Source: a virus. Taken from it: 30,004 nucleotides of DNA. Positions 6,821 to 28,385 of this stretch are shown here, one piece after another (position 1 is the stretch's first letter; each line of letters opens with the position of its first letter). The translations under genes were made by a program, and so were the position numbers. The notes under the pieces were generated by a model. It was not told the origin of the DNA and searched no databases. It worked only from the letters and a program-made list of their open reading frames with translations. The stretch is taken from positions 1-30,004 of the IMG/VR virus record IMGVR_UViG_3300035010_000018; one strand, 5' to 3'.

Positions 6821-8062
6821 TTACAATTTCGTTTTAAGGTTAATAGTTCCGTTAATCTCTCCAATATTACCCTTTGGCACTATACTGTATCCTACATTTA
6901 ACACCTTATTGACGATAACATCACTATCGGCATCGATGTAAGTCTTTCCTCCGGATATTTCGCCGGCTCTTTCCATATCTGCAAAAATTCCGTCACCGAT
7001 AGCACCCAGAGCAACCACCACACCAGGCATCAATTTGCCGGTATCTTTGTTCACTGCAGGATTGGTTTTAACTTTAGGCAGATAAGCAATCCTCAAAGCT
7101 CTTCGGGCCTTTTTTGCAGTTCGACCGTAAGCCACTGTATGCTCATTGATATTACCGTTATCATCAAGGATCACCGGCGCGCATACATGATCATTATTCA
7201 GTCTAACACCCGCAAGTCCGGTATAAGTAATTCCGAAAACATATCCTTTATTCTCCAGGGTTTGTAAATCAGAATACTGATCTTTTATTTTCTTATGGTT
7301 TGAAAGTCCTGGATTTACAAGAAGTTTTTTTGCTCCGTTGGTAAGATTTAGAGTTTCGTTTTCACCGATGTTCTGATTAACAGCACATGAGGCGCATACA
7401 CCCAGCACGGTGCCAATATTTGCGTACTTTTGAGCCAGTCCGGTCTTTTTCTCAGCAACATCGAAATCCTGGCCGATAACAACAGTAACACCTTCAGCCG
7501 GTAGATCCGGAAGAGCTCTAAGGTTGGCGGAACTGGAAGCATTGCCACCGTAAGCATAGCCTTCCAGGAATATAGACACGGGCATATGATTCTCTTCTGA
7601 CCACTCCTCTAATAGTTTTGCAGTTGCAATACTATTGTAAACATCATCCGGAACACCATTGAGCATTACAAGCGTAGATCCGGCTGTGAGATTGACACCT
7701 ATTGCCACCTGCTTAATCTTTCCTTCAGCAAAAATCATCAGCTTTTTAGCCGGGGCATCACAGAGATCGACAAGCTTTTTCGTTTGCTCTTCAAGGATTA
7801 AATAGAGCTCAGTTGACGAACCTGCGAACCGATAAAATTCGGATAGGTGTTCATAGACATGTACGTTATTTTCCGAATCATAAGCTGCATCAATTCCCAA
7901 TGCTTCAACGTCATTAAGGTTATACACTACAACAGGAAAATCATATTCTAACCCTGAAGGTTTAGGCCCGGTCAATACAATTCCCGAAATGGAGTCGTCC
8001 GTTCCCAGTCGGTTGGTTCCGACATTGCCTCTTTTAATATTTACTCCGTTAATATTTGACAT
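6821..8062 (-). CDS. Tail sheath protein (DUF2586-like)
   Basis: A 413-residue protein that fits the DUF2586 sheath family of Bacteroidota and Mu-like phages. Features include an N-terminal strand with NINGVNIKRGNVG, an SGIVLTGPKP motif, a variable outer domain in the middle (about 110-240), and a C-terminal domain containing VKTNPAVNKDTGKLMPG and GAIGDGIFADMERAG, ending in a strand that would donate to the neighbouring subunit. The sheath contracts on infection. It lies one gene downstream of the capsid gene and three bases upstream of the tube gene. Confidence 0.75.
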   Translation of the reverse strand: MSNINGVNIKRGNVGTNRLGTDDSISGIVLTGPKPSGLEYDFPVVVYNLNDVEALGIDAAYDSENNVHVYEHLSEFYRFAGSSTELYLILEEQTKKLVDLCDAPAKKLMIFAEGKIKQVAIGVNLTAGSTLVMLNGVPDDVYNSIATAKLLEEWSEENHMPVSIFLEGYAYGGNASSSANLRALPDLPAEGVTVVIGQDFDVAEKKTGLAQKYANIGTVLGVCASCAVNQNIGENETLNLTNGAKKLLVNPGLSNHKKIKDQYSDLQTLENKGYVFGITYTGLAGVRLNNDHVCAPVILDDNGNINEHTVAYGRTAKKARRALRIAYLPKVKTNPAVNKDTGKLMPGVVVALGAIGDGIFADMERAGEISGGKTYIDADSDVIVNKVLNVGYSIVPKGNIGEINGTINLKTKL

Positions 8063-21642: not shown

Positions 21643-21759
21643 TTTTAATTGTTTATGGCAGTCCGGGCATTGATTCCAGAGAACTGTTTTTAAATCGAAT
21701 TCAGAGCCGCAATGAGGGCAGATTCTCCATATTTCGTGATTATAAAATTTTAATATCAT
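21640..21759 (-). CDS. 39-residue zinc-ribbon protein
   Basis: A short gene from an ATG at 21759 to TAA at 21642-21640. It encodes 39 residues with two CxxC knuckles: Cys14-Pro-His-Cys17 and Cys31-Pro-Asp-Cys34, thirteen residues apart, the spacing of a zinc ribbon. The start overlaps the upstream stop as ATGA, which supports real translation. Such small ribbons in phage early regions often bind RNA polymerase, nucleic acid or a host protein. No family name can be given. It is easily missed because of its length. Confidence 0.7.
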   Translation of the reverse strand: MILKFYNHEIWRICPHCGSEFDLKTVLWNQCPDCHKQLK

Positions 21760-21986
21760 ATCCTATCAACCATTTTCTTTAAAACATTTTTATATGTTTT
21801 CTTAAACTCTTCTTCAGAAATCTCGACACAATCGGAGATAAACTCTGTATTGCTATGTTTTACAGGTACTACGTGTATAGTGTACATAAATAAACCGTAC
21901 TTTGCTGCCATGTAAGTAAGGCTTATAATTTCTTTTGAGCCTACACAGTAAAGAAAAGACTCGTTTTTTTTATAGTATTTATACAT
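21756..21986 (-). CDS. Small protein of unknown function behind T-arm repeat 1
   Basis: From the ATG at 21986 it has 76 residues (MYKYYKKNESFLY...). The frame is open upstream into the 47-bp repeat, but that would require a TTG start at 22028 inside the hairpin, and the other repeat copies lie outside coding frames, so the ATG is preferred. The protein is a mix of short strands and a C-terminal Lys-rich helix (EEEFKKTYKNVLKKMVD). I know no family. It is followed by the zinc-ribbon gene with an ATGA overlap. Confidence 0.5.
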   Translation of the reverse strand: MYKYYKKNESFLYCVGSKEIISLTYMAAKYGLFMYTIHVVPVKHSNTEFISDCVEISEEEFKKTYKNVLKKMVDRI

Positions 21987-21996
21987 AAAAGTATTT

Positions 21997-22043
21997 TTGT
22001 TCCCAGGAGCGGAATCGAACCGCTCCAAAAAACCGTTTGGGAT
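21997..22043. repeat. T-arm-like intergenic repeat, copy 1
   Basis: A 47-bp element identical in copies 1 and 3. On the minus strand it has TCCCA, an A/T-rich 11-nt stretch, GGAGCGG, the loop TTCGATT, CCGCTCC and TGGGA. It starts at the stop codon of the upstream gene and ends 10 bases before the ATG at 21986. See the finding on the three copies. Confidence 0.85.
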
Positions 22044-22444
22044 TAAGACAAGAATCCTTTAACCGGATCCTGACCAACAATTGTATATTCCTCTTCGTCT
22101 GCATCATCTTCGACTACATTCCTAAATAACTCTTGTAGCTCTGTTTCATACTCTTCCGGAATAATCCAAAAAAACTGATTTTCATGGCTGCTGAGCTTGC
22201 CGTTTTGCTCCCGGATCAACACTGTGTCTGTTCCGAATGCTCCGGTCTTCTGTCTTACTTGTACTACACGTCCCAGAACGCCACTCATATTACCAATCAT
22301 AGGGCCAGTAATAACAAATTTTCCTTTATCTGAACGTTGCCACGGCCTTCTCAGAATACCTCTTATTTCGGTACCTTCTTCTCTGCACACTTTTAGATAC
22401 TTTTTACACAGTTCTACCTGGTGAGTTTTGCCTTTGGTTCTCAT
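22043..22444 (-). CDS. Early-operon protein of unknown function
   Basis: A 133-residue protein. The central part (GKFVITGPMIGNMSGVLGRV, then VVQVRQKTGAFGTDTVLIRE) is beta-rich and could be a small SH3-like barrel; a KOW-type fold is a guess. The C-terminal tail is acidic (EDDADEEEY). The N terminus is basic with two Cys (LCKKYLKVC). Upstream is an 89-bp gap containing the 15-base string also found before the Cro-like gene. The stop lies at the edge of T-arm repeat copy 1. Confidence 0.5.
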   Translation of the reverse strand: MRTKGKTHQVELCKKYLKVCREEGTEIRGILRRPWQRSDKGKFVITGPMIGNMSGVLGRVVQVRQKTGAFGTDTVLIREQNGKLSSHENQFFWIIPEEYETELQELFRNVVEDDADEEEYTIVGQDPVKGFLS

Positions 22445-22463
22445 GATGTTTATTTTTTAAAAT

Positions 22464-22478
22464 TTTTGCATTATTAAT
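22464..22478. repeat. 15-base string shared with the immunity region
   Basis: TTTTGCATTATTAAT occurs here, 20 bases before the ATG at 22444, and again at 29163-29177, just before the Cro-like gene ATG at 29160. It may be a shared operator or leader sequence. Confidence 0.4.
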
Positions 22479-22533
22479 TTCTGTTTTGTTTGTAATCATT
22501 TTTATCCTGATTCCTTCACGCTCCGGGAATAGA

Positions 22534-23190
22534 TCAGTAAGGGGCGATTTTCTTTTCTTCAGCATGGCTGTAATCTATTTTTAATCTTTCCTTTTCAACT
22601 TGTTTGTGATAAGTACCACCCTTTATTTTGTCAATTTTATCATAATATGCATGATGTGCGGGAGAAAATTCCGAAACATCTAATTGATAAACTTGTTCAG
22701 GATGAAAGATTCCACTTCTTATAATATATTGATCGTAAAATACCTTTTGTAAATCTGCTCTGAGCTTGTTTTTAGTTTTTATTTTACGCTTTCTTTTAAT
22801 TTCGTTAGATGAAAATTTCTTCCACTCATGAGACATGTGTCTTTTAAAATATTCGTAAGAACATGATATTGTGATATAATCTAAATATTGTAACCTTAAA
22901 GATATTTCCCTCTTTCCGGCAGTATGCTTATATATTTCAAAATTTTGATCCTTAAAAAAGTAAGTAAGAAGCTGAAGGAAAAGTTTTATATCCAATTCTG
23001 TTGCATACTTAAAAAAATACTGCTTTTTCGTTATTTCTTCAACTTGGGACGGGCTAATATTATATTTCTTTAAAAGCTTTTTTAAAGCAATATCAGCAGC
23101 ATCCTTTTCGCCGTCAAAACCTCTGTTAGCAAGTTGCTGAATCTTAATTATCCTTTCTCTTATTTTGTCATCTATATTCATAAGATTCAA
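22534..23190 (-). CDS. DUF2786-like protein
   Basis: A 218-residue protein. Residues 6-50 (RERIIKIQQLANRGFDGEKDAADIAL, then KKLLKKYNIS) match the DUF2786 N-terminal pattern of K-I-x-x-L plus G-x-x-x-E-x-x-A-A. The rest is a long Lys/Arg-rich region with a LQYLDYITISCSYEYFKRHM helix-strand unit and a very basic stretch (about residues 130-150). DUF2786 proteins occur in phages, but their role is unknown to me. It overlaps the upstream gene by ATGA and is followed by an 89-bp gap. Confidence 0.55.
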   Translation of the reverse strand: MNLMNIDDKIRERIIKIQQLANRGFDGEKDAADIALKKLLKKYNISPSQVEEITKKQYFFKYATELDIKLFLQLLTYFFKDQNFEIYKHTAGKREISLRLQYLDYITISCSYEYFKRHMSHEWKKFSSNEIKRKRKIKTKNKLRADLQKVFYDQYIIRSGIFHPEQVYQLDVSEFSPAHHAYYDKIDKIKGGTYHKQVEKERLKIDYSHAEEKKIAPY

Positions 23191-23507
23191 TTTTCCACAC
23201 GATCAATAAAAACAACTCCTTCTCTGTAATCCTTTGTTGAATGGTAGAAATAAAAGGCTACACAATCAATTCCTGACAACATAAAGTCCTTTTCTCTCGT
23301 TCCACACTGAAAAAGGCGCGGATCCTTTGGTTTGCATTTACTATGAATAATGCATAAATCCTTGATTTTTTCAATTACTGCGTTTGTAAAACGCTTAAAA
23401 TCGTTATCCGGAATACAGGTTCGATCTATACCCGTTAGATAATCTGAAATTGCTTTTTCAAGCTTGTTTTTGGCTACATAGCCAATCGAGTAGTAGGCTA
23501 AATACAT
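23187..23507 (-). CDS. Small protein of unknown function behind T-arm repeat 2
   Basis: A 106-residue protein. The N-terminal helix (KNKLEKAISDYLTG) is followed by four Cys spread through the chain (near residues 31, 52, 58 and 68), not in a clear zinc motif. The end is beta-rich (DCVAFYFYHSTKDYREGVVFID). I know no family. The gene starts 18 bases after T-arm repeat copy 2 and overlaps the DUF2786-like gene by ATGA. Confidence 0.5.
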   Translation of the reverse strand: MYLAYYSIGYVAKNKLEKAISDYLTGIDRTCIPDNDFKRFTNAVIEKIKDLCIIHSKCKPKDPRLFQCGTREKDFMLSGIDCVAFYFYHSTKDYREGVVFIDRVEN

Positions 23508-23525
23508 ATTTTTTTGTTAATAATT

Positions 23526-23572
23526 TTGTTCCCAGGAGCGGAATCGAACTGCTCCAAAAAACCGTTTGGGAT
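23526..23572. repeat. T-arm-like intergenic repeat, copy 2
   Basis: One base differs from copies 1 and 3. The change gives A-C in the hairpin read from the minus strand but G-U in the plus-strand version. It begins at the stop codon of the 23572-23898 gene and ends 18 bases before the ATG at 23507. Confidence 0.85.
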
Positions 23573-23898
23573 TATTTTTCATGAAGAAAACTTTCTTCAT
23601 TTTCGCAATTTTGAAGATTTACATCTTCAAAATTTTCGTTAAATATTTCGTTAATAAAATCCACTTCACGTTGAAACACTATAGGCGACTGTAGTTTAAT
23701 AAAACGATGCCAGTTCCCATCTATAAAAGCATATCTGTGATAATCTAAATAAATAAAATCTCTCTGTCTCCCATGAAATTGCTCCATTGCTTTGTAGGAG
23801 GAGAATTCTTTTTTCTTTAATTCGGCACCACCTTCAAAATACTCAAGTCTAAACTTTTCGGCATCCTCTATTTTAAGCCGCTTTTTAAATTTTTTCAT
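23572..23898 (-). CDS. Small protein of unknown function between T-arm repeats 2 and 3
   Basis: A 108-residue protein rich in charged and aromatic residues. A basic start (MKKFKKRLK) leads into EKFRLEYFEGGAELKKKEF and RQRDFIYLDYHRYAFIDGNWHRFIKL. The C-terminal 30 residues are acidic. It has no family I know. It is the only gene lying between two close copies of the repeat (23526-23572 and 23911-23957), so it looks like a single-gene cassette bounded by direct repeats. Confidence 0.5.
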   Translation of the reverse strand: MKKFKKRLKIEDAEKFRLEYFEGGAELKKKEFSSYKAMEQFHGRQRDFIYLDYHRYAFIDGNWHRFIKLQSPIVFQREVDFINEIFNENFEDVNLQNCENEESFLHEK

Positions 23899-23910
23899 GT
23901 GTTGAAATTA

Positions 23911-23957
23911 TTGTTCCCAGGAGCGGAATCGAACCGCTCCAAAAAACCGTTTGGGAT
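23911..23957. repeat. T-arm-like intergenic repeat, copy 3
   Basis: Identical to copy 1 over 47 bases. It fills almost the whole gap between the DUF3164 stop (23962-23960) and the ATG at 23898, ending 12 bases before that ATG. Confidence 0.85.
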
Positions 23958-23959
23958 GT

Positions 23960-24679
23960 TTATTCTTCCGAAGAAATTGGAAAAAGATCTTCTATCTCGG
24001 TGCCGTCAGGAAAATCTACAGACGTAATAGAAAGCGGTATATAAACCTTTTTTCCCTGAGCATTAGTAGTGTAAGCTTCGATAAAAAATGCAGATCGTAC
24101 GGGCTTATATGCATCCTGAATAATCTTAACAGCATCACTGAACTGATCATCATTAAATTCTTCAGCCAGCTGCCTAAGTTCCAGTACACGTGATGACTTG
24201 AGATGACCTTTAGCATCTTTTTTGAGAAGTTTATTAACTGTACTAACCAGTTTTGCACTGTTTTCATCTTTGGCCATACTCTCAATAACTTCCTTTATCT
24301 TATCAATTCCTGCGTTTACTGTGTCGTCCCAGCCATCAACAACACGAAAGCCGTATGTTATACCATTACCCTGATCATCTGTGAAAGTATGCGTTTGTTG
24401 ACCTTGTTTTACCTGATAGGCATCCTGTTTGAGGTCGAGAAGGGTCTTTAATCCTTCAAAAATATCCAGCTTTAATATGGAAAGTTCTTCCGATACTGCT
24501 GCCAATGCTCCGACTAAGGTAGGAACGGAACTATTTACAAGGTCTTTGTAAGCCTTTCTATCCTTCTCCTTTTGGTTTTCTTTTTCCTGAAGAGTATTTT
24601 TCAACTCTTCCGGTGATACCTGATTCAGGATCTCTTTGATCTGTTCAGGTGATAATGAGTTTAAATCAATTGTTGTCAT
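23960..24679 (-). CDS. DUF3164-like Mu early protein
   Basis: A 239-residue protein that fits the DUF3164 family common in Mu-like phages. The recognisable part is KLLKKDAKGHLKSSRVLELR, then QLAEEFNDDQFSDAVKIIQDA, and a C-terminal IPLSI strand. An acidic, helical N terminus (SPEQIKEILNQVSPEEL) precedes it. The function of DUF3164 is not known to me. Position after the MuB-like gene is typical. Its ATG shares a base with the stop of the 53-residue coiled-coil gene (TAATG). Confidence 0.75.
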   Translation of the reverse strand: MTTIDLNSLSPEQIKEILNQVSPEELKNTLQEKENQKEKDRKAYKDLVNSSVPTLVGALAAVSEELSILKLDIFEGLKTLLDLKQDAYQVKQGQQTHTFTDDQGNGITYGFRVVDGWDDTVNAGIDKIKEVIESMAKDENSAKLVSTVNKLLKKDAKGHLKSSRVLELRQLAEEFNDDQFSDAVKIIQDAYKPVRSAFFIEAYTTNAQGKKVYIPLSITSVDFPDGTEIEDLFPISSEE

Positions 24680-25203: not shown

Positions 25204-26124
25204 TTAATTTTGAATTTTTATTTTTTCTCTGATTACTGTTCTTTTCAATCTTCGTAAATCGTCGATCACTTTTACATTTTGGACTTGATTGGCACTAACC
25301 GGCACTTCTTTGTAGACTGGTTTTAATTCGTTGAAGATTCTCTGTTGAGTCTGAAGGTCAGTAATACCATTTGCTGAACATATTTTTTTAGTACAGTCAA
25401 GTGTTGCACCCATAAGGTTTATATAAGCTCGGCCAAAGCGACTTTCTAACTCGTCAAAACCTAATTTTTTAAGCTTTACGCCCTTAGTGATTCTATGTTC
25501 GAGATGTGGAGTTCCGGCAATGATCAGGCTCATTTCGTCCTCTGTCTCATTGTATAAATGGATAAACCACCGAAGTGCAGAATCTTTCAGTTTATCAGCT
25601 TCGTCAACGATCAAAAGAGGTTTTATTCCTGTTCTTTTTCTGAAAAATTCTACCACCCTCATCCCCAGTTTATCAACATGCATATAGGATTTACCTGTGT
25701 CAATTCCTAACATAGTGCACAGTTCGGTCAAAAACTCACGTTTTGCCCATTCACGACAACGGATATAAAAAACACCTGTATCAACATTTCCCTGAGCATA
25801 AGATTTTAAGGGTGCACTTTTTCCGATTCCGGCCTTATCTGTGATTATCATAAAAAGGTTGTAAGCTTTAGCATCATTACAGATTTTTGTGACTTTTTTA
25901 TAGTTAATTGTTTCCGCTATTTGCCATTCTGTATCATTGTAGCCTAATGCCTTACCGACTTTTAACCACATTTCGTCTTTAATTAGTTCCCAGTTTTGAT
26001 TTCTCATTTGTGAGATTGTTGCAGTGGAAACTTCGGCTTTTGTAGCTACTTGTCCGTAGCTACCAAGCCTTTCTTTTTCTGTATCTATTGCAATAACTAT
26101 TGCAGATTTTTGTAAATTTGTCAT
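25204..26124 (-). CDS. MuB-like AAA+ ATPase, transposition target protein
   Basis: A 306-residue protein with an N-terminal helix-turn-helix (about 22-46, SYGQVATKAEVSTATISQMR), as in MuB. Walker A is DKAGIGKS at 96-103, with Asp in the first Gly position. Walker B is LLIVDEAD at 170-177. A sensor-like IIAGTPHL lies at 201-208 and an arginine pair in ELESRFGR at 225-232. MuB binds target DNA with ATP, activates the transposase and gives target immunity. It is three bases from the transposase gene, as expected. Length is near that of MuB. Confidence 0.9.
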   Translation of the reverse strand: MTNLQKSAIVIAIDTEKERLGSYGQVATKAEVSTATISQMRNQNWELIKDEMWLKVGKALGYNDTEWQIAETINYKKVTKICNDAKAYNLFMIITDKAGIGKSAPLKSYAQGNVDTGVFYIRCREWAKREFLTELCTMLGIDTGKSYMHVDKLGMRVVEFFRKRTGIKPLLIVDEADKLKDSALRWFIHLYNETEDEMSLIIAGTPHLEHRITKGVKLKKLGFDELESRFGRAYINLMGATLDCTKKICSANGITDLQTQQRIFNELKPVYKEVPVSANQVQNVKVIDDLRRLKRTVIREKIKIQN

Positions 26125-26127
26125 ATG

Positions 26128-28266
26128 TTAATAATTTTCAGACGTATTTCTTAGGATTATGTCTTCTAAAGTATCAGGAGATAAGCCGTCTCCTGAAGCT
26201 TTTTTAAGTGGAATGCTGCTATTTTCATCTGCATCCCAGTAACTATTTTCAAAGGCAGACGCCTTATTTTTATCAGTATATCTACCCATAAGAAGCGAAT
26301 CCTCTCCAATCATATTCTCCAGTTCCTTTTCTTTCAGTTCATTAATGGCTGCTTCCCTCATTTCACCAATTCCTATTGGCCTCATGTTCTTGTCTGGTCC
26401 GTAGGTTTGCGCCTGTTCCATCAATTCAGCCTCGCAGAGTGATTTCAATAGCTTCCCGTTCTTTTCCCATAAATAGCAAAGAGATAAATCGTTCAGGTCA
26501 TACGTCATTATGACCTCTTTGCCGTGATAATTTGATATGATATCGTAATATGCCGGACTGATTGAGTAATGGAACTCAACACCGACGATTTCTGTACTGA
26601 TCTGACCATTATGTTTAAGAGTGAATTTTTTTCTCAGTCCGAACAACATAGAAATTGTAGCTTCTGTCACAAATGTTACATTCGGCTTTTCACTAAAATG
26701 GTGAAGTTCAGCAGGTGAATGTTCTATTGTTTTGTGCGTTCGGGAATAAGTTGAAAGATTCGTATTTCGATAATTTTCCACATGTTGCACAACTTCTTCA
26801 ATATTTTTTTGAAAGTCCCAGCCCTCTTTAGTTGCTTCCTTTTTAATTCGCTTTAGATAATCAGCTGATCTATGAGCATATTTATGTCTTGACTGGATAC
26901 CTTCACCATAGAAATACTTTGAGTCCATATAGAACACATCCTGAAGTGTTCTGAACCATCTTTCTATACGTGCCTTGCGGTTTGCGTGAGAACTTATTGT
27001 GAACTTCACACCCTGCACAGTAGCACGCTCGAAAAAATCTATCATTTCCGGTTTATTGTGACCAGGGAATCGGTCAGTTACCCACTCGTATGGAAGGTAT
27101 CCTGCATTTTGCACCGCCATTTTCATGGCTTCCAGATATACTGAATGATTTTCCGAATATCCGAATGAATATCCCAGGATATCACCAGAATGTACATCAC
27201 GAACCGCCACAATAACTGGATATACTTCGACCTTCTTTTTCTTTTCCTTACCAGTTTTTTTGTCAATGGTGACAACCTCCACATAATGCGCGATCATATT
27301 AACACGAGTTGCATCCATTTCCCAGCAATCACCAGCATATAATGCGTTCATTTTTGGGTTGTAACCCTGAAAAATTTGAGCTTTGCGGCTTCCAGATCCG
27401 TAACGCTTCGCGCCAGTTAAAAATTGCATTTTAGGCTGCTCAAAAATTGTTTGCCCATACCAACGGCGTGAAGGCTCTTTTTTAAGTGTTAAACGGCACA
27501 TTTGCGTAACCTTTCTGATAATATGCTCCTGGCTATATGTGTAATCATTAGCATACATCTGCATAACCCAGCTAAAAACTTCAGGATCATTGTAGACTTC
27601 GGCATTACTATTGCCGGTTCTTGGCAACTGAATGATATCTACAATACTCTTATCAGTAGTTTCAAGGATGGTAATTTTTTCCTTAAGCTTCAGGTAATTA
27701 TGCGGAATATACTGAAGGTCCATATCAGTCAGTATAGGGCTTAAATCTTTGTATAGTTTGTTAGCCGTGCCGGGATATCCGTCCTTTTCATCAAGAATAA
27801 AATCAAGGACGGCACAAGCTTTAGATAGCGCAGCTCGTTGGATATCGTTCACATCTCTATAAAACTCCAGATAGTTTCTTGAAACAAGCTTTAAATGCTT
27901 TTTAAAACGTTCTTCAAGTTGAGTGAATTCCATCGACCGGCAAGCCTCTTTAAATTTATCCTTCAGTGCCTCAGCATCACCAAATAAACTTCTATAATTT
28001 TTAGGAGCCTTGTTTGGGATATTGTTAAGACAATAATAGAATTGACCCGACTGTTTACCCCAACGCCATGCCTTTCCGGAGTCCGGCATGAAGTCTTTTG
28101 CCTTTGCAAGATCACAAGCGCGTACGCCAGACTTATAAACTGATCTACTTTTCCAGAGATATGTTTCACTTACCTCACAAACTTCCATAAGCAAACGCTG
28201 TGAAATCCACAAGGATTCTGCACCGCCTGATTGTCTAATTATTATGTCTGTTGGTTGTAAGTTCAT
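26128..28266 (-). CDS. MuA-like DDE transposase
   Basis: From the ATG at 28266 (MNLQPTDIII) it has 712 residues; the longer frame would run into a GC-rich hairpin. N-terminal DNA-binding segments are followed by the catalytic core with Asp318 in CWEMDATR, Asp398 in WVTDRFPGHN and Glu435 in ARIERWF, the DDE triad of the RNase H fold. A Mu-type beta-barrel domain then spans about residues 535-610 (FTLKHNGQISTEIVGVEFHY), ending in an acidic region that in MuA binds MuB. It integrates and replicates the phage by transposition. The adjacent MuB-like gene supports it. Confidence 0.9.
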   Translation of the reverse strand: MNLQPTDIIIRQSGGAESLWISQRLLMEVCEVSETYLWKSRSVYKSGVRACDLAKAKDFMPDSGKAWRWGKQSGQFYYCLNNIPNKAPKNYRSLFGDAEALKDKFKEACRSMEFTQLEERFKKHLKLVSRNYLEFYRDVNDIQRAALSKACAVLDFILDEKDGYPGTANKLYKDLSPILTDMDLQYIPHNYLKLKEKITILETTDKSIVDIIQLPRTGNSNAEVYNDPEVFSWVMQMYANDYTYSQEHIIRKVTQMCRLTLKKEPSRRWYGQTIFEQPKMQFLTGAKRYGSGSRKAQIFQGYNPKMNALYAGDCWEMDATRVNMIAHYVEVVTIDKKTGKEKKKKVEVYPVIVAVRDVHSGDILGYSFGYSENHSVYLEAMKMAVQNAGYLPYEWVTDRFPGHNKPEMIDFFERATVQGVKFTISSHANRKARIERWFRTLQDVFYMDSKYFYGEGIQSRHKYAHRSADYLKRIKKEATKEGWDFQKNIEEVVQHVENYRNTNLSTYSRTHKTIEHSPAELHHFSEKPNVTFVTEATISMLFGLRKKFTLKHNGQISTEIVGVEFHYSISPAYYDIISNYHGKEVIMTYDLNDLSLCYLWEKNGKLLKSLCEAELMEQAQTYGPDKNMRPIGIGEMREAAINELKEKELENMIGEDSLLMGRYTDKNKASAFENSYWDADENSSIPLKKASGDGLSPDTLEDIILRNTSENY

Positions 28267-28329
28267 ATTCTTATTAAATAAAGAGAGATCTATGAAGCCG
28301 GCTCCGTTGCTCTGTCCTGGCTGTCTATG

Positions 28330-28371
28330 TTCCCGCCGTGGTGTCGAAACCACGCTGAGTCGTGGCGGGAA
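28330..28371. promoter_or_regulatory. GC-rich nested hairpins between transposase and the rightward gene
   Basis: TTCCCGCC (28330-28337) and GGCGGGAA (28364-28371) can enclose GTGGT/ACCAC (28338-28342 and 28349-28353). The ACCAC arm could instead pair with GTGG at 28362-28365, so two folds exclude each other. It would lie in the transposase mRNA leader if transcription starts upstream. Confidence 0.45.
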
Positions 28372-28377
28372 TTTTAC

Positions 28378-28385
28378 TATATTTA
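28378..28385 (+). promoter_or_regulatory. Candidate -7 box of the rightward unknown gene
   Basis: TATATTTA is one base from the TAnnTTTG consensus and sits 22 bases before the ATG at 28408. A TTG at the right distance is not clear. Confidence 0.35.

Follow-up and report, generated by a model that had tools for sequence, protein, structure and literature searches.

A compact tRNA-like RNA element repeated at gene junctions of Mu-like phages, with a possible role in mRNA processing

Among the closest described systems are the t-elements of plant mitochondria and mitochondrial tRNA punctuation, in which intergenic tRNA-like structures mark the sites cleaved by tRNA enzymes (Forner 2007 and Ojala 1981, in the account given by PMC8003010). 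RNase P measures a tRNA distance of 12 bp and accepts acceptor/T-arm minihelices as substrates (PMC11143913), and the tRNA elbow is gripped by both RNase P and RNase Z (PMC4810234). Viral tRNA-like structures of the TYMV type are also RNase P substrates (PMC12710915). Small pseudoknots are substrates of this enzyme too.

The window analysed here is a whole stretch of 30,004 nucleotides from an IMG/VR viral record. Its gene set (MuA, MuB, and DUF3164) is that of a Mu-like transposable phage, relatives of which are found in Bacteroidota genomes and include Flavobacterium phage fF4. It contains three real copies of a mini tRNA-like element, all on the minus strand and all in the order stop codon, element, ATG:

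21756..21986, minus strand: gene for a 76-aa protein, downstream of copy 1
21997..22042, minus strand: mini tRNA-like element, copy 1 (CM 64.1 bits), directly 3' of the stop of the ORF at 22043-22444
22043..22444, minus strand: gene for a 133-aa protein (PHROG 33619), upstream of copy 1
23187..23507, minus strand: gene for a 106-aa protein (MYLAYY..), downstream of copy 2; its orthologues have an element in front too
23526..23571, minus strand: mini tRNA-like element, copy 2 (CM 56.2 bits), with one T-stem mismatch (GGAGCAG)
23572..23898, minus strand: gene for a 108-aa protein (MKKFKKRLK..), downstream of copy 3
23911..23956, minus strand: mini tRNA-like element, copy 3 (CM 64.1 bits), same as copy 1
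23960..24679, minus strand: gene for the DUF3164 protein, upstream of copy 3
25204..26124, minus strand: gene for a MuB-like ATPase (PHROG 296, 1.7e-36; AAA_22)

The unit, as in copy 1, is 46 nt long and consists of an outer stem (TCCCA/TGGGA) that encloses a linker (AAC-GG-TTTTTT) and a T-arm (GGAGCGG-TTCGATT-CCGCTCC), and that is followed by a tail (ACAA). An earlier note on this DNA had recognised three copies at gene junctions, in the same orientation and identical or one base apart, which is borne out by the sequence and by 100 dinucleotide shuffles, none of which gave a chance match. These copies are the sole matches across the 30,004-base record; the count of three nevertheless has to be corrected for a fourth, divergent copy at 28370-28327, which scores at chance level. 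The note had also stacked the outer pairs on the T-arm hairpin to give 12 bp, and folding recovers this stack (5+7 bp), the mismatched copy 2 folding more weakly (-12.2 versus -18.4 kcal/mol). As for the absence of a D arm, this description holds for the stem but not for the contact, because the GG in the linker, at the D-loop contact position, is invariant. The element begins 0, 0, and 3 nt after the upstream stop in copies 1, 2, and 3, and its position 73 is followed by the ATG after 14, 22, and 16 nt, respectively. ARAGORN called no tRNA in the window, and Rfam gave no match there at the gathering cut-off; with neither a D stem nor an anticodon arm, and with no family-level match, the element does not belong to the tRNA family RF00005.

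The fourth copy lies in the leader of the MuA gene:

28371..28381, minus strand: TATAG box, its first T 11 nt upstream of nucleotide 1 of the fourth copy
28327..28370, minus strand: divergent fourth copy (CM 9.1 bits, E 2.4), with relatives at the same gene
26128..28266, minus strand: gene for the MuA-like transposase (PHROG 310, 1e-26), likely start MNLQPT at 28266

This copy is made up of TCCCGC/GCGGGA and CGTGGT-TTCGAC-ACCACG, with GA replacing GG in the linker and a tail of ACAT. Taken alone, its 9.1 bits are at chance level, and its support comes from relatives in L004, L006, L008, and L012, which keep the same type at the same gene; their counterparts have GG in the linker, unlike the GA of the window. 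The TATAG box before it appears promoter-like, and such a box stands 11-13 nt upstream of nucleotide 1 of the element in 13 of 46 MuA leaders, a spacing which suggests that transcription probably begins at the element. The longest MuA ORF begins at a GTG (28353) and would overlap the fourth element; alignment with relatives indicates that this ORF is probably overcalled and that the gene starts at the ATG at 28266. In L044, L088, L094, L116, and fF4 (L185), the presumed early promoter before MuA lies between inverted repeats (for example ATTACTATA..TATAGTAAT), to which the phage repressor probably binds as its operators.

When viral contigs and genomes were scanned with sequence patterns, at least 166 elements were recovered, at least 100 of them distinct, these counts being pattern-dependent lower bounds. 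Nearly all the Bacteroidota elements lie in loci with MuA/MuB/DUF3164 homologues, and the genera that bear them include Chryseobacterium, Elizabethkingia, Epilithonimonas, Flavobacterium, Parabacteroides, Dysgonomonas, and Alistipes. Among 148 random Bacteroidota genomes, two matched, one of them weakly through tRNA-like fragments and the other being the centre genome itself; the element is therefore no feature of host genomes. A search of plasmids for the element was negative, and Winogradskyella phage Peternella_1 has none. Two other RNAs were seen near mini-elements: an Rfam DUF805b RNA directly after a copy (L086, 5984-6016; 38.3 bits), and, in a mini-element-bearing prophage of Epilithonimonas (L109, 7510-7588), a c4-2 RNA, which belongs to a family of phage antisense RNAs.

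The earlier note had named compensatory changes in Bacteroidota relatives as a check on an RNA role; this comparison was run, and both stems are kept by covariation. Compensatory change is strong in the two helices, with 95.9% of cells paired and 9 of 12 pairs altered on both sides. The covariation score reaches 0.503 (shuffled sequences, 0.107) and collapses in every slid register; a MAFFT alignment built without structure gives 0.567 against 0.104. The inner stems of the Bacteroidota set vary almost freely in sequence with pairing retained, and the outer stems, in which TCCC/GGGA is nearly fixed within this lineage, include TCCCA/TGGGA, TCCCG/CGGGA, TCCCT/AGGGA, TCCGC/GCGGA, and ACCCG/CGGGT, among others. 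Invariant throughout the set are the GG 3 nt into the linker, the TTCGA core of the T-loop, and the [AG]CAA tail; diverged elements with 6-bp stems, found in a search that did not require the GG, still have it at the same place. The coaxial helix is 12 bp long in 62 of 100 elements and 11 bp in the other 38. The element follows the upstream stop at a median distance of 2 nt, and position 73 precedes the ATG by a median of 23 nt (IQR 17-29). The proteins encoded downstream fall into 45 clusters, the largest of which is MuA (53 of 145 distinct next genes).

Outside this lineage, a pattern that fixed only TGGT and the T-arm matched many unrelated viral contigs. With this pattern of GG plus T-arm, 36 of 39 distinct matches have an outer stem of 5-6 bp flush with the T-stem, compared with 2.1 expected from shuffled flanks. 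The reverse test constrained one outer stem, the T-loop, and an AC tail, and nothing else. Of its 67 distinct matches, 56 form the inner stem, against 17% in a control that exchanged 5' and 3' strands between rows, and GG stands at linker position 3-5 in 54 of those 56; the pattern had required neither feature. Two subclasses are present in both collections: subclass A has a 7-bp T-stem, usually GGT, and the loop TTCGA[TC]T, and subclass B has a 6-bp T-stem, GGCANNCN, and the loop TTCGAGT. Linker and T-loop type are associated with p=2e-20 among the Bacteroidota elements and p=4e-11 among those of the second collection, both values being inflated by the kinship of the sequences. That the same rule holds in two collections with different outer stems argues for a real tertiary contact. 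BLAST with a 61-nt query returned only matches the size of the T-arm and missed the class. The matches in E. coli AV124 and Enterobacter FENT2 fall within tRNA clusters, where the descriptor finds no mini-element, and the CCCAAACGGTTTTTTGG matches in L026-L035 are unrelated sequence.

The named phages with unannotated copies include Gordonia phage MakoManhole, which has three, Flavobacterium phage fF4 (elements at 2400-2443 and 7119-7162 of MN850656), Streptomyces phage Dagobah, and Mycobacterium phages Theia and SWU2. The tightest common position outside Bacteroidota is just past a stop codon, the place that the elements of all hosts share; a start is often next, but not always. In the homologous group L219, L222, and L223, the start comes directly after C74, whereas some actinophage copies, as in Theia and other L200-like phages, stand just after a stop but lack an adjoining ORF start on the downstream side. 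The 5' strand of several non-Bacteroidota copies overlaps the upstream stop (distances down to -6). The element is restricted neither to this phage nor to early operons, the setting in which the earlier note described it.

A further connection with tRNA comes from the 3' end. All 100 Bacteroidota elements have an R73-C74 tail, and C74 is present in 25 of 32 elements from elsewhere; a full ACCA is found in only 7 of 57. The host tRNA genes (Chryseobacterium, Parabacteroides, and Flavobacterium; L137-L180 and L114) encode C74 in 42 of 42 distinct tRNAs and usually do not encode C75-A76. An avoidance of C75, suggested by 0 of 32 in one set, was dropped because 9 of 57 elements in another have C75 (seven of them as full ACCA). 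In sister phages, moreover, a full-length degenerate tRNA occupies the place where the mini-element is expected:

L096: full tRNA-like sequence before MuA (UCCCGGA...UCCGGGA-ACUA)
L086 and L023: full tRNA-like sequences before MuA
Porphyromonas (P. gingivalis) phage014a: full tRNA-like sequence before MuA, tail ACAA, with the ATG 17 nt on
L132: full tRNA-like sequence before the MKKFKK gene (UCCCUCG...CGGGGGA-GCAA)
L117: full tRNA-like sequence before another gene, tail ACAA
Hankyphage p00 (L186), 1767-1849: full-length but degenerate tRNA of 46.7 bits, with an early gene 27 nt further on

The tRNA of Hankyphage p00 is probably not a working one because its anticodon loop is irregular. Orthologues of the 108-aa MKKFKKRLK.. 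protein have the mini-element in front, and in L132 the full tRNA-like sequence stands there instead; from such replacement before orthologous genes, the mini and full forms look interchangeable. Common to both are the acceptor/T-arm stack, the elbow, and the 73-74 end. Mini-element and tRNA-like sequence can also stand in tandem, as they do in L120; in L289 (791-985), likewise, a mini-element is followed by a full tRNA (45.6 bits) within about 60 nt. The full tRNA-like sequences of L023, L117, and L086 have a conserved stretch before them, AAGCACGGGCGNGGNTACTGCGAGANTGTANC, which could be another structured RNA.

The tRNA-like RNA reading proposed in the earlier note is strongly supported by these findings, i.e., the compensatory changes, the elbow GG, the R73-C74 tail, and the exchange with full tRNA-like sequences. 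That the element copies the acceptor/T-arm half of a tRNA, existing as an RNA structure, is close to certain. It has a stack of about 12 bp closed by a TTCGA loop, a GG for the T-loop, and the 73-74 end; the linker GG occupies the place of G18-G19 of tRNA, opposite the T-loop, so that the D-loop contact is present without the D-arm. From this anatomy, a 3-nt linker would cross the inner helix of 6-7 bp to reach the T-loop, in the manner of an H-type pseudoknot. Encoded in the sense strand, the element rebuilds the top half of a tRNA with 11-12 coaxial bp, a T-loop locked by the linker GG, and an N73-C74 end.

What such a mimic might do is suggested by its conserved surface, which comprises the features by which RNase P and RNase Z are known to recognise their substrates: elbow, 12-bp stack, and 3' end. 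We therefore tentatively favour, at a little less than an even chance, a processing (punctuation) site for one or both of these enzymes. Host RNase P on the 5' side and/or RNase Z on the 3' side would handle the element as a pre-tRNA, by cutting or by docking; cutting would separate adjacent cistrons and set mRNA ends, as a phage version of tRNA punctuation, and the promoter copies would define where the first message begins. Where the stop overlaps the 5' strand, an RNase P cut at nucleotide 1 would remove the stop, and such copies are compatible only with cutting on the 3' side or with the absence of cutting. Base N-1 before the element is mostly A (90 of 145), compared with the U common in host pre-tRNAs. 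The stop overlap and the lack of preference for U-1 suggest that the main event may be a 3' cut by RNase Z or a docking without a cut. Two further points speak against processing. Loop L15 of RNase P RNA, a candidate for pairing with the RCAA tail, has NGU in Bacteroidales but is varied in Flavobacteriia, and those Flavobacteriia without a clear GGU leave the C74 contact unexplained there; in addition, there is little for promoter-proximal copies to punctuate.

The strongest rival, which we consider somewhat unlikely, is a cis-acting tRNA-like leader that boosts translation of the next gene by its fold, for example through docking at the ribosomal E site/L1 stalk, cutting being unnecessary. 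In vitro, an ORF was translated more strongly when tRNAs (2- to 6.3-fold) or the tRNA-like yjdF aptamer stood before it, and the yjdF effect was abolished by mutation of G19,G20 (PMC9142559), the equivalent of which is invariant in the phage element; the median of 23 nt to the ATG and the frequency of MuA transposases as next genes (53 of 145) also suit this role. However, the ACCA tail hardly mattered in that precedent, yet R73-C74 is conserved in the phage elements, and the copies of Theia and the L200-like phages, having no adjoining downstream start, show that the element is not always upstream of an ORF. Both the conserved tail and these copies argue against translation activation as a general role.

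Another possibility, less likely still, is a binding site or structural cap that acts without cleavage, in which protection of mRNA ends or repression of translation would come from the fold itself or from an RNA-binding protein of phage or host origin. The near-fixation of TCCC/GGGA in Bacteroidota while the inner stem varies looks as if the outer stem were partly read as sequence, and several copies per operon would make a regulon. The variety of outer stems in other phages (27 in 32 elements) and the substitution by full tRNA-likes with unrelated acceptor stems leave little sequence for a specific protein.

A transcription-level signal (antitermination, a put-like RNA, or an intrinsic terminator) is very improbable. 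Put and nut sites start at the early promoter, as do some copies of the element, but the copies recur tightly after stops along the operon, which antitermination does not need; as for a terminator, the T/U run precedes the hairpin instead of following it, which is the wrong polarity. A DNA-level repeat (a recombination boundary, an attachment-site remnant, or a mobile element) is scarcely credible, for although identical copies before unrelated genes (the 45 downstream clusters) suggest shuffling, the covarying helices, the single orientation to genes, and the linker/loop coupling require selection at the RNA level, and covariation and strand bias largely refute it.

Should RNase P or RNase Z cut, many phages would order their gene expression by pared-down tRNA mimics, in a manner familiar from organelles; should the role be translational, the in vitro effect of tRNA leaders would be in natural and wide use. 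In either case, a covarying RNA class exists in well-studied model phages (Theia, SWU2, and fF4) and has been missed by annotation and by Rfam, and the class is easy to test. Rfam 15 has no family that matches the mini-element, and the open-access papers searched describe no phage elements of this kind, subscription papers and preprints lying mostly outside this search, so that an earlier description is possible.

Comparison with known systems sets the element apart from each of them. The start-associated and extended-start-associated sequences (SAS/ESAS) of cluster K mycobacteriophages (PMC3203893) are likewise short repeats before some phage genes, but they consist of a 13-bp RBS-like GGGATAGGAGCCC at start codons and of DNA inverted repeats without RNA covariation; the present element differs in sequence, covaries as RNA, and is not one of them. 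Structures of the TYMV type share the acceptor/T-arm stack, the elbow mimic, and the compact linker, but each RNA virus genome has a single one, placed at its 3' terminus and usually bearing CCA, whereas the phage element is internal, multi-copy, carried by DNA phages, and ends in N73-C74. The yjdF riboswitch and grafted cis-tRNA leaders (PMC9142559) share a tRNA-like fold upstream of an ORF, and the elbow GG/T-loop is essential in yjdF; yjdF is a ligand-binding relative of tRNA-Lys with a four-way junction, whereas the phage element has two helices and no known ligand. The putative processing site has its nearest likeness in the t-elements and tRNA punctuation, as a tRNA-like structure which stands between cistrons and may mark cleavage there, in phage. 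The t-elements are organellar, whereas the phage element is a compact top-half mimic of 44-49 nt that has no anticodon arm, keeps only the GG of the D-loop, and is a presumed site of cleavage. On a broader view, which we hold with more doubt than the processing role itself, a phage-wide, so far unnamed class of cis-acting RNA in two subclasses would make host tRNA-maturation enzymes the standard cutters of polycistronic phage mRNA, a possible bacterial counterpart of mitochondrial punctuation in which the tRNAs have been stripped to their recognised core.
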